From a virus, in the IMG/VR virus record IMGVR_UViG_3300010885_019771, positions 1-20,847 of that record: DNA of 20,847 nt; one strand, written 5' to 3'. This document shows, one piece after another, positions 1,018 through 18,284 of this stretch. The translations under genes and the position numbers were made by a program. Below the pieces are notes generated by a model. That model ran no database searches, had not been told where the DNA came from, and saw only the letters and a list, made by a program, of their open reading frames with translations. The stretch's first letter is position 1; each line of letters begins with the position of its first letter.

Positions 1018-1362
1018 ATGGATCAAGTTGTACTATATTGGGCTGCTGGTATTATTACAGTAGGCACTGCACTTAGTATGTTAGCTGTGGCTCTAAAACG
1101 CCTCTACAAGCGCGTACAGGGCTTTATGGAGAATTGGGATCAATTTCACAGAGATTGGTCTGGAGAGCCTGCAATGCCCGGTAGAAGTGCTGTACCTGGT
1201 GTTATGGAGCGACTCAACCGGATTGATGGGGAATTAAAGCGTAATGGCGGTTCTTCTATGAAAGATGCAATTAATAGGGTTGAAAAGAAACTTGAACAAA
1301 TAGATGCTAGACTTGATCAAGGTAATCAACGATTTGAAGAAATTGAAACGAGAATACGATGA
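1018..1362 (+). CDS. Membrane-anchored coiled-coil protein, possible second holin or lysis accessory
   Basis: This is a 114-residue protein with one hydrophobic N-terminal segment (about residues 4-27) followed by a basic stretch (KRLYKR), a PGRSAVPGVMERL segment around 54-66, an NGGSSMKDAINRV segment around 76-88, and a C-terminal heptad-like helix to the end. This is an N-out, single-anchor topology with a cytoplasmic coiled coil. Similar small membrane proteins are common near actinophage lysins and are often called putative holins; that comparison is from memory. The ATG follows a purine-rich stretch (GGGGAAAAGG), and its TGA overlaps the next ATG (ATGA), so it is coupled to the gene at 1359. 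Confidence 0.6.
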   Translation: MDQVVLYWAAGIITVGTALSMLAVALKRLYKRVQGFMENWDQFHRDWSGEPAMPGRSAVPGVMERLNRIDGELKRNGGSSMKDAINRVEKKLEQIDARLDQGNQRFEEIETRIR

Positions 1363-1868
1363 CTTTTATGCCAAACAAAAAAGGCGGTAGAGTACCACAG
1401 CCGGGTGTAAATAACCCTATTGGTAGCGCAGGTGGTTTTGAAATTGCTGGTAACAGTGGTGCTGCAGGTAGTATTTTGGGTGCACTAGGAACTAGGCTAA
1501 ACGCACGAGGAATGAGCTGGAATGCTGCCCGTGCTGCATTAGAGGTTGCTAAAGTTGAAGCAACTAGAGACATGACTATTAAACAAATGGACGTGCAAGC
1601 TCAGGCTGAGGCTCAGCAAAGAGAGCATGAAGCTATCATTAAAACTACTCGTATGAACAATACACACGAGATTAGAAAAGCAAATGCGGCTTCTGAACAA
1701 GCTCGTTTAGATCAATTGCAGTCTACAAACAATGTTCATGGTGTTCTAAATAGACTAAGAGATGACTTTCCTGATGCTGATCTTGATTTTAAAACTGAAC
1801 GTGGTCAGTCAATATCGATCAGACGTCCTAGGGAGGCGTCCTCTGATTCTTCAGAGGGTGGGAGTTAG
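1359..1868 (+). CDS. Unrecognised protein with Gly-rich N-terminus and long coiled coil
   Basis: This 169-residue protein begins inside the previous gene's stop (ATGA overlap). Residues 1-50 are glycine- and asparagine-rich; about 55-130 is an Ala/Glu/Gln-rich region expected to be a continuous helix or coiled coil (ARAALEVAKVEATRD and onward); the C-terminus is acidic and Ser-rich (EASSDSSEGGS). No enzyme motif is seen. The Gly-rich start with segments such as GSILGALG could be membrane-active or flexible. Gene position after the membrane protein suggests expression with the lysis block, but a minor virion or scaffold-like role would fit equally well. Confidence 0.65.
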   Translation: MTFMPNKKGGRVPQPGVNNPIGSAGGFEIAGNSGAAGSILGALGTRLNARGMSWNAARAALEVAKVEATRDMTIKQMDVQAQAEAQQREHEAIIKTTRMNNTHEIRKANAASEQARLDQLQSTNNVHGVLNRLRDDFPDADLDFKTERGQSISIRRPREASSDSSEGGS

Positions 1869-2781
1869 CCCTAGAAGAAGAAACGACGCGTTTAATACAG
1901 GCTCAACTAGTGGTAGAGGCACTCCTGTAGACCCTACTAGAGTACCTGGTGCTCCTGCAATTCCATTAATTACTCCTCATTTTGAAGAAGCACAAGCTCA
2001 AGTAAACACAGAGTCTTCTAATGAATCTGGTATTCCAGAATCTACTACAGAAGGAAATGGAACTCCTGCTACAGCTGCACCTGCAGCTGCTCCTATTAAA
2101 GATCCTAATCATGGTTTCTATAAAGAAAATGGCGATTTTGAAACAGACCCTATAAAGATTGCTGCAGCATTTACTATGCAAGGTGCAAACACTAGAAGCA
2201 CAGGTCAGCCTTTTGATGCTAGATTCCCGTCTTATAAACACCCTACTTCTGGTGTTAGTGTTGAAAATATTTCTAAGTTAGATGAATCAAAAGCAAAGCC
2301 TACATTAATGCCTGCTATTAAAGTTGTTTTTAAAGGAAAAAACGCTAATAGATTTGGGTTGGAAAATCAAAAACCAGGTGCCAAATGGAACAATTCTCAC
2401 GGTGGTTATGAAAAACAAGGCGAAATCAGACCAAGTGGAATTAACTGGACAGGTGAAGAAAAAAATAGAGCTAAACATGAAGGCAGCTATTTTGAAAACT
2501 TGGTTATGCCAGCTGCAAATAAAATTGCTGAAATACACCAAAAGCTCAATAGTGAGAAAAATGGTGGAGCATCGGGTGTTGCTGCAGTAACTGATAAAAA
2601 CAACACTAGTGAATTACAGTGCTCTTTTTGCGGTACTACTGCTGACAGAGACACTTCTAAGCCTGAAACAGACAATGATTTTATATCTGATCACTCTATT
2701 TTAAAAAACGGCTGGTGTAGAGCAGCTATGCTAGCCCATAATACTCTGCACCCTATTAAAGGCAACTTAGAGGAAATTTAA
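1858..2781 (+). CDS. Unrecognised protein sharing a domain with its downstream neighbour; C-terminal Cys/His cluster
   Basis: From the GTG at 1858 the protein is 307 aa; the frame is open upstream to 1762 but that part overlaps the previous gene and looks like out-of-frame translation, so the start is uncertain (GTG 1801 and CTG 1843 are alternatives). Residues 1-80 are Pro/Ser/Thr/Ala-rich. About 95-235 is a domain that recurs in the next gene: FETDPIKI near its start and ANKIAEIHQKLNS at its end, against YETDIDKI and AKKIAEYHSKINS there. The C-terminus has C255-x2-C258, H279, C287, H294 and H298, a plausible zinc site. Function is unknown. Confidence 0.6.
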   Translation: MGVSPRRRNDAFNTGSTSGRGTPVDPTRVPGAPAIPLITPHFEEAQAQVNTESSNESGIPESTTEGNGTPATAAPAAAPIKDPNHGFYKENGDFETDPIKIAAAFTMQGANTRSTGQPFDARFPSYKHPTSGVSVENISKLDESKAKPTLMPAIKVVFKGKNANRFGLENQKPGAKWNNSHGGYEKQGEIRPSGINWTGEEKNRAKHEGSYFENLVMPAANKIAEIHQKLNSEKNGGASGVAAVTDKNNTSELQCSFCGTTADRDTSKPETDNDFISDHSILKNGWCRAAMLAHNTLHPIKGNLEEI

Positions 2782-2782
2782 A

Positions 2783-5485
2783 GTGTTAGATAAGATTACC
2801 CTGCTATCTTTAGGTATTAGACCTGATACAGATCCAAATGATCCTGAAACCTGGTCTGATGAATTAAAGATAAACCATAAAAGAACTTTACAGTCATTAG
2901 GCTCTAGAGCATCTGATATTGCAGTAAAACCTAAAGGAAAGGTTTCTGGAAAGTCTGGATCTTTTAAACCATCAACTAGTAAAAATCCTGAAACAGGGGC
3001 TTTAAGTGGAGATGAGATAAGACAAGAATCTGAAAGAATTAAAACCGCTTTAAGTCAGATTGACAACTCTGATTTAGAAAAAGATACGGCTCCTAAAGGT
3101 GTTAACTTTACTATATGGGGCAGTGCGTCAGACAAGTCTAAAAAGCTTATTAGAGAATACATAAAAACTCATAGAGAGTTTATAGCAAGACACCAAAAGA
3201 ATGGTCAGTTTCCAGCTGAAAGCGACCTTAGCTCGTCTGCCGCAGAAGATCTAGAAACACTTCAAGATAATCTTGCGGATGTACAAAGCGCACTTGGAGA
3301 AGAAGCCTATAAACGTGGTGAGCGTCATCCTGACCCAGAAGGTAATTTTGTTGTAGATCCTACAGAAGGAAAATGGGGTCAACAACAAGCTGTAATGGGT
3401 CATACAGAAGAATTAGGAAGAGTAAAATCTGCTCAATTATTTGCTTCTACCTATCCTCTTGGATTTACAGGGTATGATCGAGTTCCTGATGGAATGGATG
3501 AAATAGACTTTGATAATTTAAGCGCTCCAATTAAAGTTCCAACTATTAAGTTAAAACAGGCAAGCTCACAAGACCTTAAACAAGAACAAGCAACGGCAGA
3601 AGCTGCTGCAGCTGTTAAAAAGCCACAAAACATTTCAGATGAAGAACTTGATGATATGGAAGAAATGGATGGCTATGAATGTGATACTTGTGGTGAACCT
3701 GCAATTGGATACGATGAAGAAGACGGGTATCAATGTAAGAGTTGTTACAAAGATACTCATGGAACTAGTTCCGATGAAGATGAGCCAGAAGAAGAGTCCA
3801 GCACACCTGTAGCAAGTTCTGGATCAGAAAGTATGCCTAAGTTATCTCCAATAAAAGATGATGATGCGTCTCAATATACACCTGGTCCATATGAAACAGA
3901 TATAGATAAAATTAAGTCTCAATTTGCTATCACATCATCTTCAACTGCAAGAAAAGATGGCACCCCTGACTTTATTGCTAACTATACAAATCCAGAAGTT
4001 CCAGGTCATACAAAACTTGTTGTTAGTGCAATGGTTTCTCCAAATGCCACTGGAAGACCAAATCCAAATGGTGGACGACTTTACAGCATAAACTGGGGTG
4101 GGGACTCAGTAACTTTGGCTAATGGTAAAAACTCAACAAAACTTGTAGGTTGGGGTACAGGACAATTTGGAAAAGGAATTGCAACTGGGAGTAGAGAAGA
4201 CGAGTTTAATTTAGCGGTACATTCTGTTGCTAAAAAAATTGCGGAGTATCATTCTAAAATTAATAGCAAATTAGTTGGGTATACAGCTCCACAGTCTGAA
4301 GAAGAGGCTGCTTCTGAACTAAATAATGAGGGCGCTTCTACTGGTAATAATTATGTTAGCGCAGATTACAAAGGGTTTGCTGAGCATCAAAAAGCTGTAA
4401 ATGCAATTGATAAAGAGCTGTCTACTCACGATAAAAAGTCTTCTGGATTTGCTGCAGTTAAAGCATTAAGAGACGCTGTATCTCCTAATGGAGGTCCTAC
4501 ATTTGCAGACACTAATGAAGAAGAACGCGATAGAGTTACTGGCATTATAAACCAAGAACTTACTAAGCATAAAAAAGGCAGCATAATGCATGCGTCAATT
4601 AGCAGGATTGCAGATAACCTTGGGTATGACCTTTCTTCTGTCACACCTACTGTACAAGAACAAAATCAAGCACAAACTGAAGCTGGAAGCAACATATCTG
4701 CTCAAATGACAGAAGCTGCTGCACAATCTAAAGAAGAAAAATGGGATGACCCGAGTGGGTATGAAGTTAGAATTACTCAAGATGGTAAACGAGTAGTGTA
4801 TTCTGACTTTTTAAGGCAAAAAACTGTTCCTATTCCTAAAATAAGTGATAGTCAAAGAATCATGCTGTATACTAAACCTGCTGGTGAACCTCCTGCCCCA
4901 GTAGGGTTCCAAGAACGTGCAGCAACTAGACCTAAACCACCTAGTGCGGGAACTGTTAAATCAGAGGCAATTCCTAAAGAACAGCGTTTTGCTAGTAATT
5001 TAAGACCTGCAAATATCTCAGAAGATCATTGGAACGCTTTAGGTGAACTTGGTCAACATGGTAAGCTAGTTAGGTCGTTTGTGTCAATGTATGCCCATAA
5101 ATGGCACTCTATAAAGGATGGGGAAAGCAAGTACTCTTTAGACCAACTTAAAAGTGATAGAGACACTATAACTAGATTCTTTACAGAAAAAACTGGTGGA
5201 AATCGAGAAAGCTATGATGGGTCATATTTAAGAAGTTATCGTGATTTAGCTAATAACATATCAGGTGAGGCTACTTTAGGAAAAGGAGCTTACTATGATA
5301 AAGCAAGAAAGTCAATTGCTAAAGACAAAGAAACTTTAGGTAAATTAAAGTCTTCTTTTGGTGAACTTCCTAATAATGGTTTTGCAGATTCAAAAGACAC
5401 CAGTGGGGCATATAGTCCTGTAACTCCAGAAATAAGTAAGGGTATAGTCGATAGAGTACTATCTGCTTACCCAATGCCAGAATAA
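2783..5485 (+). CDS. Large (900 aa) unrecognised multidomain protein with a zinc-ribbon-like motif
   Basis: The GTG start at 2783 lies one base after the previous stop, with AGAGGA about 8 nt upstream. Residues 1-290 are polar and charged with some helical segments. C300-x2-C303 and C318-x2-C321 form a classic two-knuckle zinc-ribbon pattern set in very acidic sequence. About 370-497 is the domain shared with the upstream gene. The C-terminal 200 residues are a separate, largely helical, basic region with many Tyr/His/Trp. No nuclease, polymerase or protease motif is visible. The size and modular composition could suit an internal or ejected virion protein, or a large host-interaction protein; neither is shown. 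AGA arginine codons are frequent, unlike the capsid gene. Confidence 0.75.
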   Translation: MLDKITLLSLGIRPDTDPNDPETWSDELKINHKRTLQSLGSRASDIAVKPKGKVSGKSGSFKPSTSKNPETGALSGDEIRQESERIKTALSQIDNSDLEKDTAPKGVNFTIWGSASDKSKKLIREYIKTHREFIARHQKNGQFPAESDLSSSAAEDLETLQDNLADVQSALGEEAYKRGERHPDPEGNFVVDPTEGKWGQQQAVMGHTEELGRVKSAQLFASTYPLGFTGYDRVPDGMDEIDFDNLSAPIKVPTIKLKQASSQDLKQEQATAEAAAAVKKPQNISDEELDDMEEMDGYECDTCGEPAIGYDEEDGYQCKSCYKDTHGTSSDEDEPEEESSTPVASSGSESMPKLSPIKDDDASQYTPGPYETDIDKIKSQFAITSSSTARKDGTPDFIANYTNPEVPGHTKLVVSAMVSPNATGRPNPNGGRLYSINWGGDSVTLANGKNSTKLVGWGTGQFGKGIATGSREDEFNLAVHSVAKKIAEYHSKINSKLVGYTAPQSEEEAASELNNEGASTGNNYVSADYKGFAEHQKAVNAIDKELSTHDKKSSGFAAVKALRDAVSPNGGPTFADTNEEERDRVTGIINQELTKHKKGSIMHASISRIADNLGYDLSSVTPTVQEQNQAQTEAGSNISAQMTEAAAQSKEEKWDDPSGYEVRITQDGKRVVYSDFLRQKTVPIPKISDSQRIMLYTKPAGEPPAPVGFQERAATRPKPPSAGTVKSEAIPKEQRFASNLRPANISEDHWNALGELGQHGKLVRSFVSMYAHKWHSIKDGESKYSLDQLKSDRDTITRFFTEKTGGNRESYDGSYLRSYRDLANNISGEATLGKGAYYDKARKSIAKDKETLGKLKSSFGELPNNGFADSKDTSGAYSPVTPEISKGIVDRVLSAYPMPE

Positions 5486-5547: not shown

Positions 5548-5799
5548 ATGGCTACTTGCGCTAACTGTTCTAATGAAGCATTTTTTATTTATCAGGTAAC
5601 TGATTCGTATAAGATTGACTTTTGTTCTGCTCACGTGCCTAATTTTTTGCGTTCTGAAAAGTACGCAGCAAGCCTTATTACCTTAGATTTACCAGTCATC
5701 GAAGAGGTGACCCCAGTGTCTCAGAAAAAGAAGTCTGTTGAGACAGTAGTTGAGGAAACTCCTGCTGAAGATCCAGAATCAGAAGATGCCACTAATTAG
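5548..5799 (+). CDS. Small zinc-finger-like protein with acidic tail
   Basis: This 83-residue protein has C4-x2-C7 and C26-x2-H29, spaced as in small treble-clef or zinc-ribbon folds, followed by a Glu-rich, low-complexity tail (about 50-83). A strong ribosome site (AAGGAG) lies before the ATG, following a 62-nt AT-rich gap after the 900-aa gene; no convincing promoter was found in that gap. The fold suggests binding of nucleic acid or protein, but no family is recognised. Its end overlaps the start of the next Cys-rich gene by 14 bases, so the two are likely expressed together. Confidence 0.7.
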   Translation: MATCANCSNEAFFIYQVTDSYKIDFCSAHVPNFLRSEKYAASLITLDLPVIEEVTPVSQKKKSVETVVEETPAEDPESEDATN

Positions 5800-6019
5800 G
5801 AAATTTGCCGTTCAAGGGCATCCCGTTCCTAATGGATATACTAGACCTCGTGGACCATTTCCACCAGAAATCCTAGCACAAACTAGGGTGGTTCATGAAG
5901 ACTACAACTCGGACTCCTTACATGAAGCATTAGATGACGTTCGCATGTTCCGCTGTAAGGAATGTGAAGATATTCTCTACGAGGATGAACTTATTAACCA
6001 TGATTGCGAAAGCGAGTAA
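5786..6019 (+). CDS. Small protein with C-terminal Cys/His zinc-like motif
   Basis: The ATG at 5786 gives 77 residues; the frame is open further upstream to a TTG at 5750, but the ATG is preferred because it gives the shorter overlap with the preceding gene. The N-terminal half is Pro- and Arg-rich (VPNGYTRPRGPFPPE). The C-terminal half contains C57-x2-C60 and H72-x-C74 in acidic surroundings, resembling a short zinc finger. The stop codon is two bases before the next gene's ATG. No family is recognised; the repeated appearance of Cys/His sites in this and the three preceding genes is the main clue. Confidence 0.65.
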   Translation: MPLIRKFAVQGHPVPNGYTRPRGPFPPEILAQTRVVHEDYNSDSLHEALDDVRMFRCKECEDILYEDELINHDCESE

Positions 6020-6021
6020 AA

Positions 6022-8103
6022 ATGCCTACAAATAGCGGCAATCCAGTCGACAGTGCTGGAAACCTTCAAGTCGATTTTGCGTGGGGTAATTTTCCTCCAC
6101 AGCCAAACGATGCACGTACAACTGTAGCTGACACTACAACACCTAGCACTACAACCGATCCAATTTTTTCATCAGCTAACCAGAACAAACGTATTGTTCC
6201 TGGTAAAGACAACCACGATAGTGTTCTTGGTGACTGGGGTGGCTATCCACTCTTTGATGCAGGAACAAAAAATGCTAATGGATTTTACCAGGGAAATACT
6301 GGTAAGTTTACTGGTACTGGTGCTACTGCAACAGCTCTAGCTAGCTATACTCCTTACATTGTAGTTCCTTCAGTATTTGGTCAGACTGACGCAAATGCTA
6401 AAGATGCACTTCGTGACAGTGGATTTGCTAACGCTAGCATCTCTAACGCTACTGCGGCTCTTGGTGGTCGTTGGAAGCCTACTGGTTGGACCACATCTGG
6501 TCAGAACGTAACTTTTACAGGTGGTGCAAACAGCGGACTAAGCGTTGGCGATATCTTCACTGTGTGGGGTTTTGGTGCCACTCTTAATGGTACATACACT
6601 GCTGGAGCATCAACTGCTACTACTAGCGTTGGTCCAGCAGCTTTTCTAGGCACTCCTGCAGCTACTTCTACTGGTACCGGTTATTTGGTTGTTGTAGGTC
6701 AAAGCCTAACAACCACTGCTACTGGTTCTGTTGGATCAGTTACTATTACTGTTGCTTCAGCAACTAACCTAACTGTTGGTATGGTTGCAACTGCTGTTGG
6801 TGTTCCAACTGGTGCTGTAATTCAGTACATTAATGGCACGTCTGTTCAGCTTTCAGCTCAGCTTACTGCTGCTTTGTCAACTACTTCTATTACTTTTGCT
6901 ACTCCTCAAAGAGTTGCATCAGGTATAAGCCTAGTAAGAAGAGACGGTACAAGTGCTACTGTAACCACTACTGCTACCCATGGTCTATCTGTTGGTGATA
7001 GCGTCACTGTTATTAACTCCGCTGTAAAGACTGCTCAACTTGCGACAGGTGCTTCAGGTCAAGCTGTTCTTAATCTAGCTGCTATTGGGGGTAACGCTCA
7101 GAATGACCAGGTATTTGGTCCTGGTATTCCTGCAGGTGCTACTATTACAGCTACTGGTGCGGGTACTCTTACCCCAACTATCAGCGCTAACTTGACTACA
7201 ACTCTTGTTGCTAACTCAGTTGCAACAACTGGTACAGGTACATTTGACTCTACAGCACTTACTGTTGCTTCAGGAACTGGTACTGTAAATGGTCACTTTG
7301 TCACTGGTTATGGTATTCCTGACAACACCTTTGTATCATCTGGTGGTGGAACTACTAGCATCGTTTTGAGCAAAGCCCTTAACGTGTCTATCAACGCTTC
7401 TGCTGTAACCTTCAGAATTGGTGCTACCACAACTGGTACTGCTGCTGTTGGAGCTACCGTTGTAAACGTGGCTGCTACTACTAACCTAGTAGTTGGACAG
7501 ACTGTATCTGGAACAGGTATTGCTGCAGGAACTACAATTGTTGCAATTAACACTCTTGCTCTTACTTTGAGCTTGCCATTAGTTGGAGCAGTGCCTGCTA
7601 GCACTCTTCTTACATTTACTAACTTGGTTACCATTGGTCTTCAATCTAGCGGTGTTCTTAACTCAGGTGTGGTATCTAACCTTCCAGTTGCTGTTCTAGT
7701 TACCTCAGTTCCTAGCACAACTAGCTTTACATTTGCGGATACTGGTGCTGCTGTGGCGCTTGCTTCAGATACTTACTGGACAACTGCTGCTGGTACTAAC
7801 AACGCAAGTCAGGCTACTCTAAACGTTGCTGCAGGTGCGGGTGCATTTGTTAACGCCCAGATTGGTAGCGTAGTTACAGGTCCTGGTATTGCTGATGGTA
7901 CAGTTGTTCTAACCCGTTCAACTGATGCACTTGGTCTTAGCAAGAATCTTACTGCAGCTATTACTGCTGGAACTGTTATTGGATTCTCTAGCGGTCAAGT
8001 AGTTCCAGGTGTACGTACAGGTACTGTATCTGCTCAAGGTGTTGCTGCAGGTGCGGCTACTACTGGTTCAAGCACTGCGATTACAGTAACTGTTTATAAC
8101 TAA
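6022..8103 (+). CDS. Beta-repeat virion-type protein with a PASTA-like segment
   Basis: This is a 693-residue protein from the ATG at 6022 (an in-frame TTG at 6004 lies inside the previous gene). Residues about 111-135 (VPSVFGQTDANAKDAL and flanks) resemble the first half of a PASTA domain, a module known to bind peptidoglycan fragments. At least five repeats of about 38 residues follow, near 256, 364, 427, 495 and 618, each built on a V-x-G-x-GI-x-x-GT turn and a later L-S strand. A separate GLSVGD element occurs near 173 and 321. Composition is Gly/Thr/Ala/Val-rich with almost no charge, as in phage decoration, spike or fibre proteins. An adsorption or capsid-surface role is inferred. Confidence 0.75.
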   Translation: MPTNSGNPVDSAGNLQVDFAWGNFPPQPNDARTTVADTTTPSTTTDPIFSSANQNKRIVPGKDNHDSVLGDWGGYPLFDAGTKNANGFYQGNTGKFTGTGATATALASYTPYIVVPSVFGQTDANAKDALRDSGFANASISNATAALGGRWKPTGWTTSGQNVTFTGGANSGLSVGDIFTVWGFGATLNGTYTAGASTATTSVGPAAFLGTPAATSTGTGYLVVVGQSLTTTATGSVGSVTITVASATNLTVGMVATAVGVPTGAVIQYINGTSVQLSAQLTAALSTTSITFATPQRVASGISLVRRDGTSATVTTTATHGLSVGDSVTVINSAVKTAQLATGASGQAVLNLAAIGGNAQNDQVFGPGIPAGATITATGAGTLTPTISANLTTTLVANSVATTGTGTFDSTALTVASGTGTVNGHFVTGYGIPDNTFVSSGGGTTSIVLSKALNVSINASAVTFRIGATTTGTAAVGATVVNVAATTNLVVGQTVSGTGIAAGTTIVAINTLALTLSLPLVGAVPASTLLTFTNLVTIGLQSSGVLNSGVVSNLPVAVLVTSVPSTTSFTFADTGAAVALASDTYWTTAAGTNNASQATLNVAAGAGAFVNAQIGSVVTGPGIADGTVVLTRSTDALGLSKNLTAAITAGTVIGFSSGQVVPGVRTGTVSAQGVAAGAATTGSSTAITVTVYN
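6787..7987 (+). repeat. Five degenerate ~38-residue beta repeats encoded within the virion-type gene
   Basis: The copies are recognisable by the turn motifs VGVPTGA, GPGIPAGA, GYGIPDN, GTGIAAGT and GPGIADGT, each followed about 15-20 residues later by a strand with L-S and ending near S/T-x-x-x-F. Spacing is irregular (63 to 123 residues), so other material sits between copies. Similar turn motifs are widespread in phage structural proteins. Confidence 0.6.
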
Positions 8104-8114
8104 ATATTGGTAAC

Positions 8115-8990
8115 ATGGCTAAGTCCTGGGATCCTAAAAATCAACCTGATCAGCAACTCCGTTTGGAAGCTGCTCAGCGATTGGATCCCAGGGCTGAGCT
8201 TTATCAGGTAAATCCTGATGTAGCTGTTGAGCTTCTTAAGCTCCAGCAAGGTACTGGTGGAAACTACACTAGTATTGAAAGTGCATTTCAAGCACTTCCT
8301 ACTGCCTCATCTGTTGGTGAATTTGCTAAAACAGGTCAATTTGCAGAAGCTAGATCTCTTTACTTTGATGATGCGGTTCGTGCATCTCAACTTGGATATG
8401 ATTTAACCACGGGTAAATATTACACTACAAGTACTGCGTATGACCCTAATACAAAAAGCAGGTATACTCGTGGTGGTATTGAGTATGACAATTTAGCTGC
8501 GGATGCTAGAGATTATGAGACTGAGCCTGCTCCAATTACAGTTAAACCTACATCTACAACTAATCCTAAAAAACCTAGAACAATTGCTGCAGGTTACAGA
8601 CCTGCAACTAGTGAAGATGGACGTGCAGGCACACTTACTGTAATTTTTAGAGATGGTAGCTACTACAACTACTATGATGTTGAACCTTATTTATGGCAGC
8701 AATTTAAGCAAGTAAAATCTAAAGGTAGATTTATACGTATGTATCTAGATCAAAAACCTAGAGGCTATGCAAGCGTTTCTTACATTAGTGCTATTGCTCA
8801 AAAGACTGAATACTACATCTCTCGTACTAACCAGGTTATGACTAAAGGTAAACAAGGGTTCCGTGCTAAGAGACAGCCTAATTTGGATAGAAGATTGCTA
8901 CAAGCCGAGCGGGCAACACGAAGAGCTGCTAGACTTGCTAGAGCAGCAGGAACTAATCCTGCAAGTACTAGAGGAAAAAGGCGCGCATAA
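8115..8990 (+). CDS. KTSC-like domain protein of unknown role
   Basis: This is a 291-residue protein. Residues about 170-218 (GTLTVIFRDGSYYNYYDV and on to the KSKGRFIRMYL segment) match the general pattern of the KTSC domain, a short beta module with a G-x-x-Y-x-Y core and an S-x-G-x-F/Y element found in phage and bacterial proteins, sometimes next to lysyl-tRNA synthetase-like modules. The N-terminal 140 residues are mixed alpha/beta and the C-terminal 45 residues are very rich in Arg and Ala (RRAARLARAA), probably a basic helix able to bind nucleic acid. It sits between virion and packaging genes, so a structural or DNA-contacting virion role is possible. The ribosome site is weak. Confidence 0.7.
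   Translation: MAKSWDPKNQPDQQLRLEAAQRLDPRAELYQVNPDVAVELLKLQQGTGGNYTSIESAFQALPTASSVGEFAKTGQFAEARSLYFDDAVRASQLGYDLTTGKYYTTSTAYDPNTKSRYTRGGIEYDNLAADARDYETEPAPITVKPTSTTNPKKPRTIAAGYRPATSEDGRAGTLTVIFRDGSYYNYYDVEPYLWQQFKQVKSKGRFIRMYLDQKPRGYASVSYISAIAQKTEYYISRTNQVMTKGKQGFRAKRQPNLDRRLLQAERATRRAARLARAAGTNPASTRGKRRA
8125..8192 (+). other. 10-bp perfect inverted repeat at the start of the KTSC-like gene
   Basis: CCTGGGATCC at 8125-8134 is exactly repeated in inverse at 8183-8192 (GGATCCCAGG), enclosing a 48-nt loop and beginning 10 nt after the ATG at 8115. In mRNA it could form a stem early in the coding region and affect ribosome access. Coding constraint does not demand complementarity here; chance remains possible. 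Confidence 0.45.
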
Positions 8991-16278: not shown

Positions 16279-17811
16279 TTGGCAGTTTTAACTAATCTTG
16301 CAAATCAACTTCGCTTTGAACTTGGCGATCTTGGTAAATCTTTCGTAACTAACTTTGTTGCTGATGGTACTACAAACAGGTTTAGACTTCACTATGCCCC
16401 GTTAGACGGCGATGGTGTAAAAGTCTTTAAAAATGGCGTTGATATCTCTACTTTAGCTTCTGTAGAAGAGCAAACTGGTGTTTTAGTTACAGACACTGTT
16501 CCTGCTGATGGCGATGAGCTTCTTGTTAGCGGAACATACTACAGGTATTTTACTGCAACAGAAATAAAAAAAATTGTAGAAGAAGCCTTAATAACCCATA
16601 CAAATGGACATACTGATGTTGTTGGACGCCAACTTACTTTAGAAAACTTACCTACAATTGAAGAGTACCCTGTAGTTATACATGCGGTTACTTTGGCTTT
16701 ATATACCCTAGCAACAGACGCTGCTTTTGACATTGACATCCAAGCACCTGATGGCGTGAATATTCCTAGATCTGAACGCTATCGTCAGCTAATGGATATG
16801 GTTCAAGCAAGACAATCTCAGTATCGTGAGCTATGTACTCTTCTAGGTGTTGGTCTATACAAGATCGATGTGTTTAATCTTAATAGAATCTCTAAGGCTA
16901 CCGGTCGTCTTGTACCTATGTACGTCCCTCAAGAGGTTGACGATCGTTCATATCCAGAAAGAACACACGTTACTACACCTACTCTAGGTTCTATAGCTCA
17001 ACCTTGGGAAACTGAATCTGGCGAGTTAACCGCTTACCAGGGTCGTGCATTTAGCCACTCATTGTCAGTTATTGGTAACTATGCTGGCAAATCATTCATC
17101 GCTAATCTTCTAAATCAACGTGGATCTGTTCTTACAGTACAACCATTTACCTTAGATGTGACAACTTCAGTTGATGTTACTATTACAGCTGTTTCTAGAA
17201 CTGCGTCTAGTACGTCTATTCTTCTTACTACCAGTACTCCTCATAGTTTAGTGCAAGGTGAACTAGCAACAATTATTGGTGTAGATAGTACTGTAAATGG
17301 AACGGTTACTGTGGCAAGCATTGTAAGCACTACTCAATTTACTGTTACTGGAACTGCCACTACTGCTCTTGCACTAACTAATCTTTCTGGTCAAGTGTCA
17401 ACAACTGGTACGGATGTTATTACAGCCGCTACTAGAACTGCTGGAAGTACTTCAATTCTTCTTACTACTAATGCAGTAAATAGTTTGGCGCAAGGAGATG
17501 CTGTAGTTATTACTGATGTAGATAGTACTGTTGATGGATTTGGAACAGTTGCAACTATTGTAAGCAATACACAGTTTACTATTACGGGTATTGCAACTAC
17601 TGCGCTTGCACTAACTGGTCTTGCTGGTCAGGCAGAAACAGATGCTTCTAAGGCATACACATTTGATATTTCTCTTATTGCTGAACAAACTTTGCGTTTG
17701 GCTGAAAGAACATACTGGTCTATATCTACAGTAGATGCGTTTACTAATGAAAAAATTGAAATTCAAGGTGGTAAGTTCTACACTGTCAGACGTAATACGG
17801 TGGTATTGTGA
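16279..17811 (+). CDS. Connector-like neck protein carrying a tandem beta repeat
   Basis: This is a 510-residue protein from TTG 16279, chosen because GGAGGA lies just upstream (spacing is short) and the next residues AVLTNLANQLRFELGD read as a typical start. The N-terminal 90 residues look like a small beta domain (NRFRLHYAPLDGDGVKVFKNG), and residues about 95-190 are helical with VIHAVTLALYTLATDAAFD and RSERYRQLMDMVQARQSQY, as in head-tail connector proteins. Residues about 300-457 hold two copies of a 79-residue beta unit, after which the chain ends with a beta segment. A head-tail joining or upper-tail role is inferred from position and this pattern; it could also be a tail protein proper. 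Confidence 0.65.
   Translation: MAVLTNLANQLRFELGDLGKSFVTNFVADGTTNRFRLHYAPLDGDGVKVFKNGVDISTLASVEEQTGVLVTDTVPADGDELLVSGTYYRYFTATEIKKIVEEALITHTNGHTDVVGRQLTLENLPTIEEYPVVIHAVTLALYTLATDAAFDIDIQAPDGVNIPRSERYRQLMDMVQARQSQYRELCTLLGVGLYKIDVFNLNRISKATGRLVPMYVPQEVDDRSYPERTHVTTPTLGSIAQPWETESGELTAYQGRAFSHSLSVIGNYAGKSFIANLLNQRGSVLTVQPFTLDVTTSVDVTITAVSRTASSTSILLTTSTPHSLVQGELATIIGVDSTVNGTVTVASIVSTTQFTVTGTATTALALTNLSGQVSTTGTDVITAATRTAGSTSILLTTNAVNSLAQGDAVVITDVDSTVDGFGTVATIVSNTQFTITGIATTALALTGLAGQAETDASKAYTFDISLIAEQTLRLAERTYWSISTVDAFTNEKIEIQGGKFYTVRRNTVVL
17179..17640 (+). repeat. Two tandem 237-bp repeats encoding a beta module
   Basis: The two units begin near 17179 and 17416 and align with a period of 237 bp (79 residues). 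Shared elements include STSILLTT, DSTV, STTQFT or SNTQFT and TTALALT. Each unit contains an S-L-x-QG-[DE] turn related to the HGLSVGD element of the virion-type protein at 6022-8103. Divergence at the nucleotide level shows an old duplication. Confidence 0.8.
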
Positions 17812-18284
17812 CCATAAACCCAAACGCCCCTATTTTACCTGAACAAGATGTTGCGTTAATTCCGGTTTATGATGAACCATATAATCCTAATGATTACCCT
17901 ACAGCTGGTACTCCACCACAAACTGTAGATCCTCTTATTGACTGGCAAGCTGTCGATATAAATTTACTTCCTGGAGTTCCTGGTCAAAGAGGTCCTACTG
18001 GTCCTGCTGGAGCAGCTGGAGCAGCTGGACCTGCTGGTGCTGCTGGAGCAACTGGTGCAGCTGGTGCTACAGGACCAGCAGGAGTTTCAGGAGGGTCTTT
18101 TAGTTACACTCCTGCGGATGCAAGGGATACTTACACAATTTCACACAATTTAGGGTATCAACCAAACGTAATGGTGGTTGATTCCTTTGGCACTGAATAT
18201 TTTGGAACAATAGTTTACACTAATACTAATAGCCTAACCATTACTTTTACCTCTGCGGTATACGCTACCGCTTACCTATCTTAA
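17808..18284 (+). CDS. Collagen-like short fibre protein
   Basis: This is a 158-residue protein whose GTG start overlaps the previous TGA (GTGA), indicating coupling. Residues 1-55 are Pro/Asp-rich and may anchor to the tail; residues 56-96 are about 13 Gly-x-y triplets (GPTGPAGAAGAAGPAG and following), expected to form a collagen-type triple helix; residues 97-158 form a beta-rich tip with YTISHNLGYQPNVMVVDSFG. The tip resembles the C-terminus of the next gene (THGLGTNLVTAQVYDTST). Collagen repeats in phage are typical of trimeric fibres. A receptor-contacting or fibre-linker role is inferred. Confidence 0.85.
   Translation: MTINPNAPILPEQDVALIPVYDEPYNPNDYPTAGTPPQTVDPLIDWQAVDINLLPGVPGQRGPTGPAGAAGAAGPAGAAGATGAAGATGPAGVSGGSFSYTPADARDTYTISHNLGYQPNVMVVDSFGTEYFGTIVYTNTNSLTITFTSAVYATAYLS

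Follow-up and report, generated by a model that had tools for sequence, protein, structure and literature searches.

Probable exchange of protein halves at a conserved hinge in an orphan two-gene phage cassette

The 20.8-kb virus record IMGVR_UViG_3300010885_019771, analysed over its whole length of 20,847 nucleotides and referred to as the window, carries two adjacent genes, P1 (1858..2781, 307 amino acids (aa)) and P2 (2783..5485, 900 aa). All features described here lie on the plus strand. Judged from gene content, P1 and P2 form a cassette of two accessory genes located among the late genes of a small phage clade. P2 is very likely a modular protein that is shuffled between related phages, its halves being exchanged at a conserved 24-aa hinge. 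A sequence-only reading of this DNA had described a domain present in both proteins, here called domain A, as a duplication within one family. The domain is probably duplicated, but this description is too narrow: domain A belongs to a set of portable modules, outside it P1 and P2 are different proteins, and P2 is a mosaic produced by recombination. The kind of process is already known as phage protein mosaicism; exchange around a hinge, in a cassette of two orphan genes, is a more interesting finding than the duplication. Overall, a shuffled accessory cassette of exchangeable binding parts is the best explanation, and we consider it about evenly balanced between right and wrong.

Exchange of halves in gene 2

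Gene 2 was compared in five contigs, namely the window and the four IMG/VR contigs with relatives of P1 or P2 (L001, L002, L005 and L008). Scans of IMG/VR with domain A, the hinge, module M7 and the C-terminal module returned only contigs already known. The hinge (TVQEQNQAQTEAGSNISAQMTEAA, P2 residues 623-646, 4649..4720) is the site where halves exchange. Up to the hinge, L001 gene 2 is window-like (88% at the DNA level over the first 1.5 kb), and past it 89% identical to L008. Gene 2 of L005 and L008 is 95% identical in DNA over 445 codons and then diverges; past the hinge, L005 shares its C-terminal part with L002 (83% in DNA over 1258 bases). By this pattern of sharing, two N-terminal types occur with two C-terminal types in all four combinations. 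The window carries a third C-terminal type beside the two exchanged ones. Within gene 2, DNA of the window can be aligned to L005 and L008 only at the hinge and in short C-terminal patches; with L002 the first 180 bases are alignable too. Assembly chimeras were considered as the source of the mosaics and rejected by argument, the shared halves being 83-95% identical rather than identical and coming from different metagenomes.

Domain mosaicism in phages, in which otherwise unlike proteins share long fragments of high identity, has been described (Nat Commun 2023, PMC10684548), and the known recent examples concern mainly receptor-binding proteins, endolysins, neck passage structures and replication proteins (PMC10684548). 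Gene 2 of L001 and L008 is a mosaic protein pair as defined there (a shared fragment of at least 50 aa with at least 30% identity, covering at most half of each protein): the two share 267 aa at 86.9% identity, which is 30% and 37% of their lengths, and their N-terminal halves give only short weak matches. This sharing of 267 aa at 87% resembles the described cases, whereas P1 and P2 differ from them as orphan, zinc-finger-like late proteins with a single fixed hinge.

In distant pairs the hinge shows a proportion of synonymous differences (pS) of about 0.4-0.6 and of nonsynonymous differences (pN) of 0.09-0.17, its synonymous sites being as divergent as elsewhere. Since synonymous change is near background while the amino acids are kept, the hinge is constrained as protein and does not merely reflect recent exchange. 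Between the window and L001, synonymous divergence (dS) is 0.02 in TerL, 0.34 in P1, 0.30 in the N-terminal half of P2 and 1.22 in its C-terminal half. Because dS of the cassette lies far above that of TerL, the cassette has had a different history from the genes around it and is being swapped. Both open reading frames (ORFs) are present as the sequence-only reading had placed them and are preserved in relatives at a ratio of nonsynonymous to synonymous divergence (dN/dS) of about 0.1-0.3. Values of 0.1-0.3 within closely alignable halves argue that P1 and P2 are functional proteins under purifying selection; for P1 against its relatives the range is 0.09-0.26.

P2, a multidomain mosaic by its ORF, relatives and model, begins one nucleotide past the stop codon of P1, a tight spacing. 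It is acidic, and both proteins are hydrophilic in composition. The N-terminal motif NDPETWSDELKINHKR (2783..2917) is present in all five gene-2 proteins. It is followed by an N-terminal copy of the helical module M4 (residues 100-232, 3080..3478), recognised by shuffle test and model, by a zinc-ribbon-like CxxC-x14-CxxC cluster (C300, C303, C318, C321; 3674..3760), seen in the sequence with weak zinc-finger matches only, and by domain A (residues 366-500, 3878..4282). Further on are the helical module M6 (residues 528-613, 4364..4621), which has two similar halves and a predicted local distance difference test (pLDDT) score of about 77-90, the hinge, and a C-terminal helical module ending in YPMPE (4934..5482), about 42% identical to the C-termini of L002 and L005. 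M4 resembles the module at the C-terminal end of gene 2 in L001 and L008 (equalled in 0 of 3000 shuffles), and its region is predicted to be helical, with pLDDT mostly 74-89 over residues 81-180. Given this resemblance and the two similar halves of M6, several modules are duplicated, domain A among them. P1 EEAQAQVNTESSNESG was considered as a second copy of the P2 hinge and rejected, as 392 of 5000 shuffles score equally well.

Domain A and the predicted structures of P1 and P2

P1, defined by its ORF and relatives, consists of a disordered N-terminus, domain A (residues 93-236, 2134..2565) and a C-terminal, zinc-finger-like CxxC..H..C tail of C2HC type (C255, C258, H279, C287; 2611..2745), the latter found by profile search. 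Its start codon is GTG and overlaps the preceding gene g169, and orthologues are present in L001 (94%) and L002 (62%). Both copies of domain A are delimited by BLASTP, profile, shuffle test, model and motif. The pattern [FY]ETDxxKI ... AxKIAExHxK[IL]NS, by which the domain had been recognised, matches P1 at 94-232 and P2 at 370-495; no other ORF in about 90 fetched loci carries it except the P1 orthologue of L001. BLASTP of full P1 against P2 aligned residues 73-236 with 350-499 at E = 0.005 (single comparison). Profile alignment by hhalign from small profiles gave two blocks (E 0.0038 and 0.015), collinear and corresponding to the two ends of domain A at consistent spacing, but with low HH probability (9% and 3%). 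In Smith-Waterman comparisons with shuffles matched in local composition, p was about 0.001 for the complete proteins; restricting the comparison to the domain gave 0.0006-0.004. The similarity goes beyond chance, at modest significance for a single pair. A third, divergent version in L005 and L008 (LETNEDAIRSRFVL ... NIALYHRGLLGEK) was compared with P2 domain A (p 0.0007 and 0.008) and with P1 (not significant alone in the shuffle test). Support for domain A rises because the P2 copy also matches this third version. By profile search, domain A occurs in gene 1 only of L002, in gene 2 only of L008 and in both genes of the window and L001; L002 gene 2 is without domain A and without the Cys cluster.

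An accidental or convergent likeness of short motifs at the two ends of the domain would fit the low pairwise HH probability, the result for P1 against the third version and the thin identity between the two ends. The shuffle values of about 0.001, the collinear, consistently spaced blocks, the bridging third version and a similar order of predicted elements in both models make such an origin quite improbable. Absence of a significant score combined with different predicted folds, which would speak against a common domain, was not the outcome. Domain A is probably a real duplicated domain, one and the same in P1 and P2, though confidence is modest if only the P1-P2 pair is considered.

Other parts of the sequence-only reading fared differently. 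One copy is embedded in a bigger protein, as supposed, and the family searches uphold the view that no known enzyme motif explains the domain. An INW-containing centre had also been proposed; the INW of P1 (195-197) and that of P2 (436-438) do not align, and the shared residue is a Trp (W197 in P1, W457 in P2). Each protein does have a Cys cluster, but the two differ in type and position and are not shared: CxxC...H...C of P1 (255-287) lies after domain A, CxxC-x14-CxxC of P2 (300-321) before it. The P1-type cluster is also found in gene 1 of L001, L002, L008 and L005 (profile search). The gene-1 protein of L008 (L008 4828-5775) has two CxxC..H..C clusters where domain A would be. The Cys/His spacing in the tail of P1 and in the middle of P2 is like that of C2HC and zinc-ribbon fingers and suggests that these clusters bind zinc, whereas the scores are sub-threshold only, all matches of P1 and P2 to zinc-finger families (zf-C2HC5, TraR-like C4) lying below curated cut-offs.

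AlphaFold2 models of P1 and P2, built from seven alignment rows, have a mean pLDDT of 48.5 and 53.9, respectively. In both models domain A consists of a short helix, strands and a long C-terminal helix (98-103 ... 209-234 in P1, 374-379 ... 471-497 in P2), with low pLDDT (about 40-70 in P1 and 30-79 in P2). This agreement is not independent evidence, because the alignments include each other's sequences. In P2, confidence is higher for a helical region at about 80-180 and for four helices at 531-613 and lower for the helical C-terminal region; stretches 227-282, 328-367 and 618-739 are below pLDDT 50. By these models, P1 and P2 probably consist of small predicted-folded modules between low-confidence linkers that would be disordered. 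Fold matches of P1 (best Z 3.3, some E2-enzyme chains at Z 2.1-2.8) were judged meaningless. The best match of P2 (Z 6.3, PedB, followed by bromodomains) falls on the four-helix bundle of M6, a common arrangement, and is uninformative. P1, P2 and the tested relatives gave nothing above cut-off in Pfam, PHROGs, NCBIfam, PADLOC and PDB by sequence and profile, and 84,980 species genomes, scanned once with domain A and once with the C-terminal module, yielded no relative.

A fixed hinge with exchangeable C-terminal halves would also suit receptor-binding or adhesion proteins of the tail or surface that diversify by exchanging their C-termini. Against this, the genes sit between lysis and terminase genes, outside the tail region, and the models are mainly helical with disordered linkers; no tail-fibre fold or family was matched by P1 or P2, by sequence or by low-confidence model. 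Moreover, zinc-finger-like Cys clusters would be better suited to a reducing cytoplasm. We regard a receptor-binding role as very unlikely.

Genomic setting of the cassette

Family searches recognise genes for TerL, an SPP1-type portal and the major capsid protein in the window. Its first half encodes, all on the plus strand, an M23 peptidase, g114, g169, P1, P2, two small Cys-rich proteins, a long repeat protein, a KTSC protein and TerL. The left border of the cassette is formed by g114 and g169 (1018..1868) and the right border by the small, conserved Cys-rich gene ZnA (5548..5799), which is present in most related loci covering the position. A search with TerL gave 80 loci at 77-100% identity. 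Since 46 of these loci, lying outside the clade, have both border genes 0.3-1.2 kb apart with other short genes between them, as compared to 3.7-4.4 kb in the window, L001, L002 and L008, P1 and P2 are accessory.

The nearest annotated phages by TerL (about 50% identity) and capsid (58-59%) are the Streptomyces phages BRock and LuckySocke, both with tail sheaths. Their head-gene order is similar to that of the window; they differ in that the regions fetched matched neither P1 nor P2 in tblastn, nor any module profile. Likewise, tblastn of P1 and P2 against annotated phages gave no match. A related 60-kb contig encodes a sheath-like protein, as judged from its sequence. By these gene comparisons, the lineage of the window is related to the contractile-tailed phages BRock and LuckySocke and, because these nearest relatives are Streptomyces phages, we infer an actinobacterial host.

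Several neighbours deserve mention. The small protein g114 has a hydrophobic segment plus a coiled coil and may be holin-like. Two overlapping small Cys-rich genes (5548-6019) are kept in most related phage loci. The long repeat protein (6019-8103) has a PASTA-like stretch, YIVVPSVFGQTDANAKDALRDSGF, and ranges from about 223 to 706 aa in close relatives. The KTSC-domain protein (8115-8990; Pfam PF13619, E 9e-12) is kept next to TerL and matches BRock and LuckySocke over a shorter length. A small protein with collagen-like GXX repeats (17808-18284) adjoins repeat-rich, adhesion-type genes, and L002 has genes for a GNAT acetyltransferase and an HSP20-like chaperone (L002 2691-3679) upstream of its lysis genes. 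A scan for promoters and terminators gave nothing informative.

With lysis, terminase and head genes as neighbours, P1 and P2 might be cytoplasmic assembly or lysis-timing accessory proteins, scaffold- or chaperone-like and without a role in host defence, their variation being due to drift and general recombination at a locus that tolerates change. That adjacent genes also differ in length and that most relatives lack the cassette would be in line with such a role. The focus of exchange on a conserved hinge and the purifying selection on the modules argue against it, and absence from 46 relatives fits a core assembly role poorly; we consider it unlikely.

Possible roles of the cassette

In the explanation we prefer, a shuffled cassette of binding parts, the modules of P1 and P2 would bind variable targets of the host or of rival phages. 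Gene 2 would encode a multivalent adaptor whose specificity changes when halves are swapped at the hinge. The position beside capsid, terminase and lysis genes would point to genes that are expressed late and whose products perhaps travel with the virion. A host-facing adaptor role falls just short of an even case, and delivery with the virion is rather doubtful. To a hitherto undescribed counter-defence or host-takeover system, in which the large protein of the cassette would be a combinatorial adaptor with halves joined at the hinge and domain A supplying binding in either gene, we give a similarly low probability.

A number of points weigh against this explanation. None of the modules matches a family or fold that would point to a target. 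The link between the two copies of domain A is only modestly significant in any single pair, and the sample of five contigs is small. Fast change is not unique to the cassette, since the 699-aa repeat protein and the M23 peptidase nearby also vary. Placement of P1 and P2 in the virion is conjectural, drawn from gene neighbourhood.

Typical T4 internal proteins are much smaller than gene 2. By analogy with them, P1 and P2 might be virion-internal proteins injected with the DNA, a leader directing packaging and variable bodies inhibiting host defences. T4 Ip1-Ip3 are variable, injected accessory proteins which share only an N-terminal leader (PMC12373910). The late-region position and the accessory, variable nature of the cassette fit this analogy, as does the N-terminal leader of P1 (1858..1947), which is common to the gene-1 protein of L008, whose body differs. 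The match of MGVSPRRRNDAFNTGSTSGRGTPV in P1 to MGVKPKSSRNAAFSQGSGGGRTTRV in L008 gene 1 was equalled by 1 of 5000 shuffles and is based on few sequences, which weakens the parallel. It is further weakened by gene 2, a long multidomain protein shuffled by halves and far larger than those of T4, and by the lack of an S78 prohead protease in seven related records, other protease families having been left unsearched. No sequence relation of P1 or P2 to T4 Ip1-Ip3 was detected, the known T4 leader itself being left out of the comparison. Packaging and injection of P1 and P2 are putative, and we hold injection to be fairly unlikely.

The exchange of halves at one hinge extends phage mosaicism, familiar chiefly from receptor-binding proteins and endolysins, to orphan late-region proteins of another kind, in phages whose packaging genes are almost the same. 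Should the modules prove to bind host factors, the cassette would be an unexplored arms-race locus in environmental actinophage-related phages, and the pattern of exchange would indicate which modules to pair with which hosts for testing.

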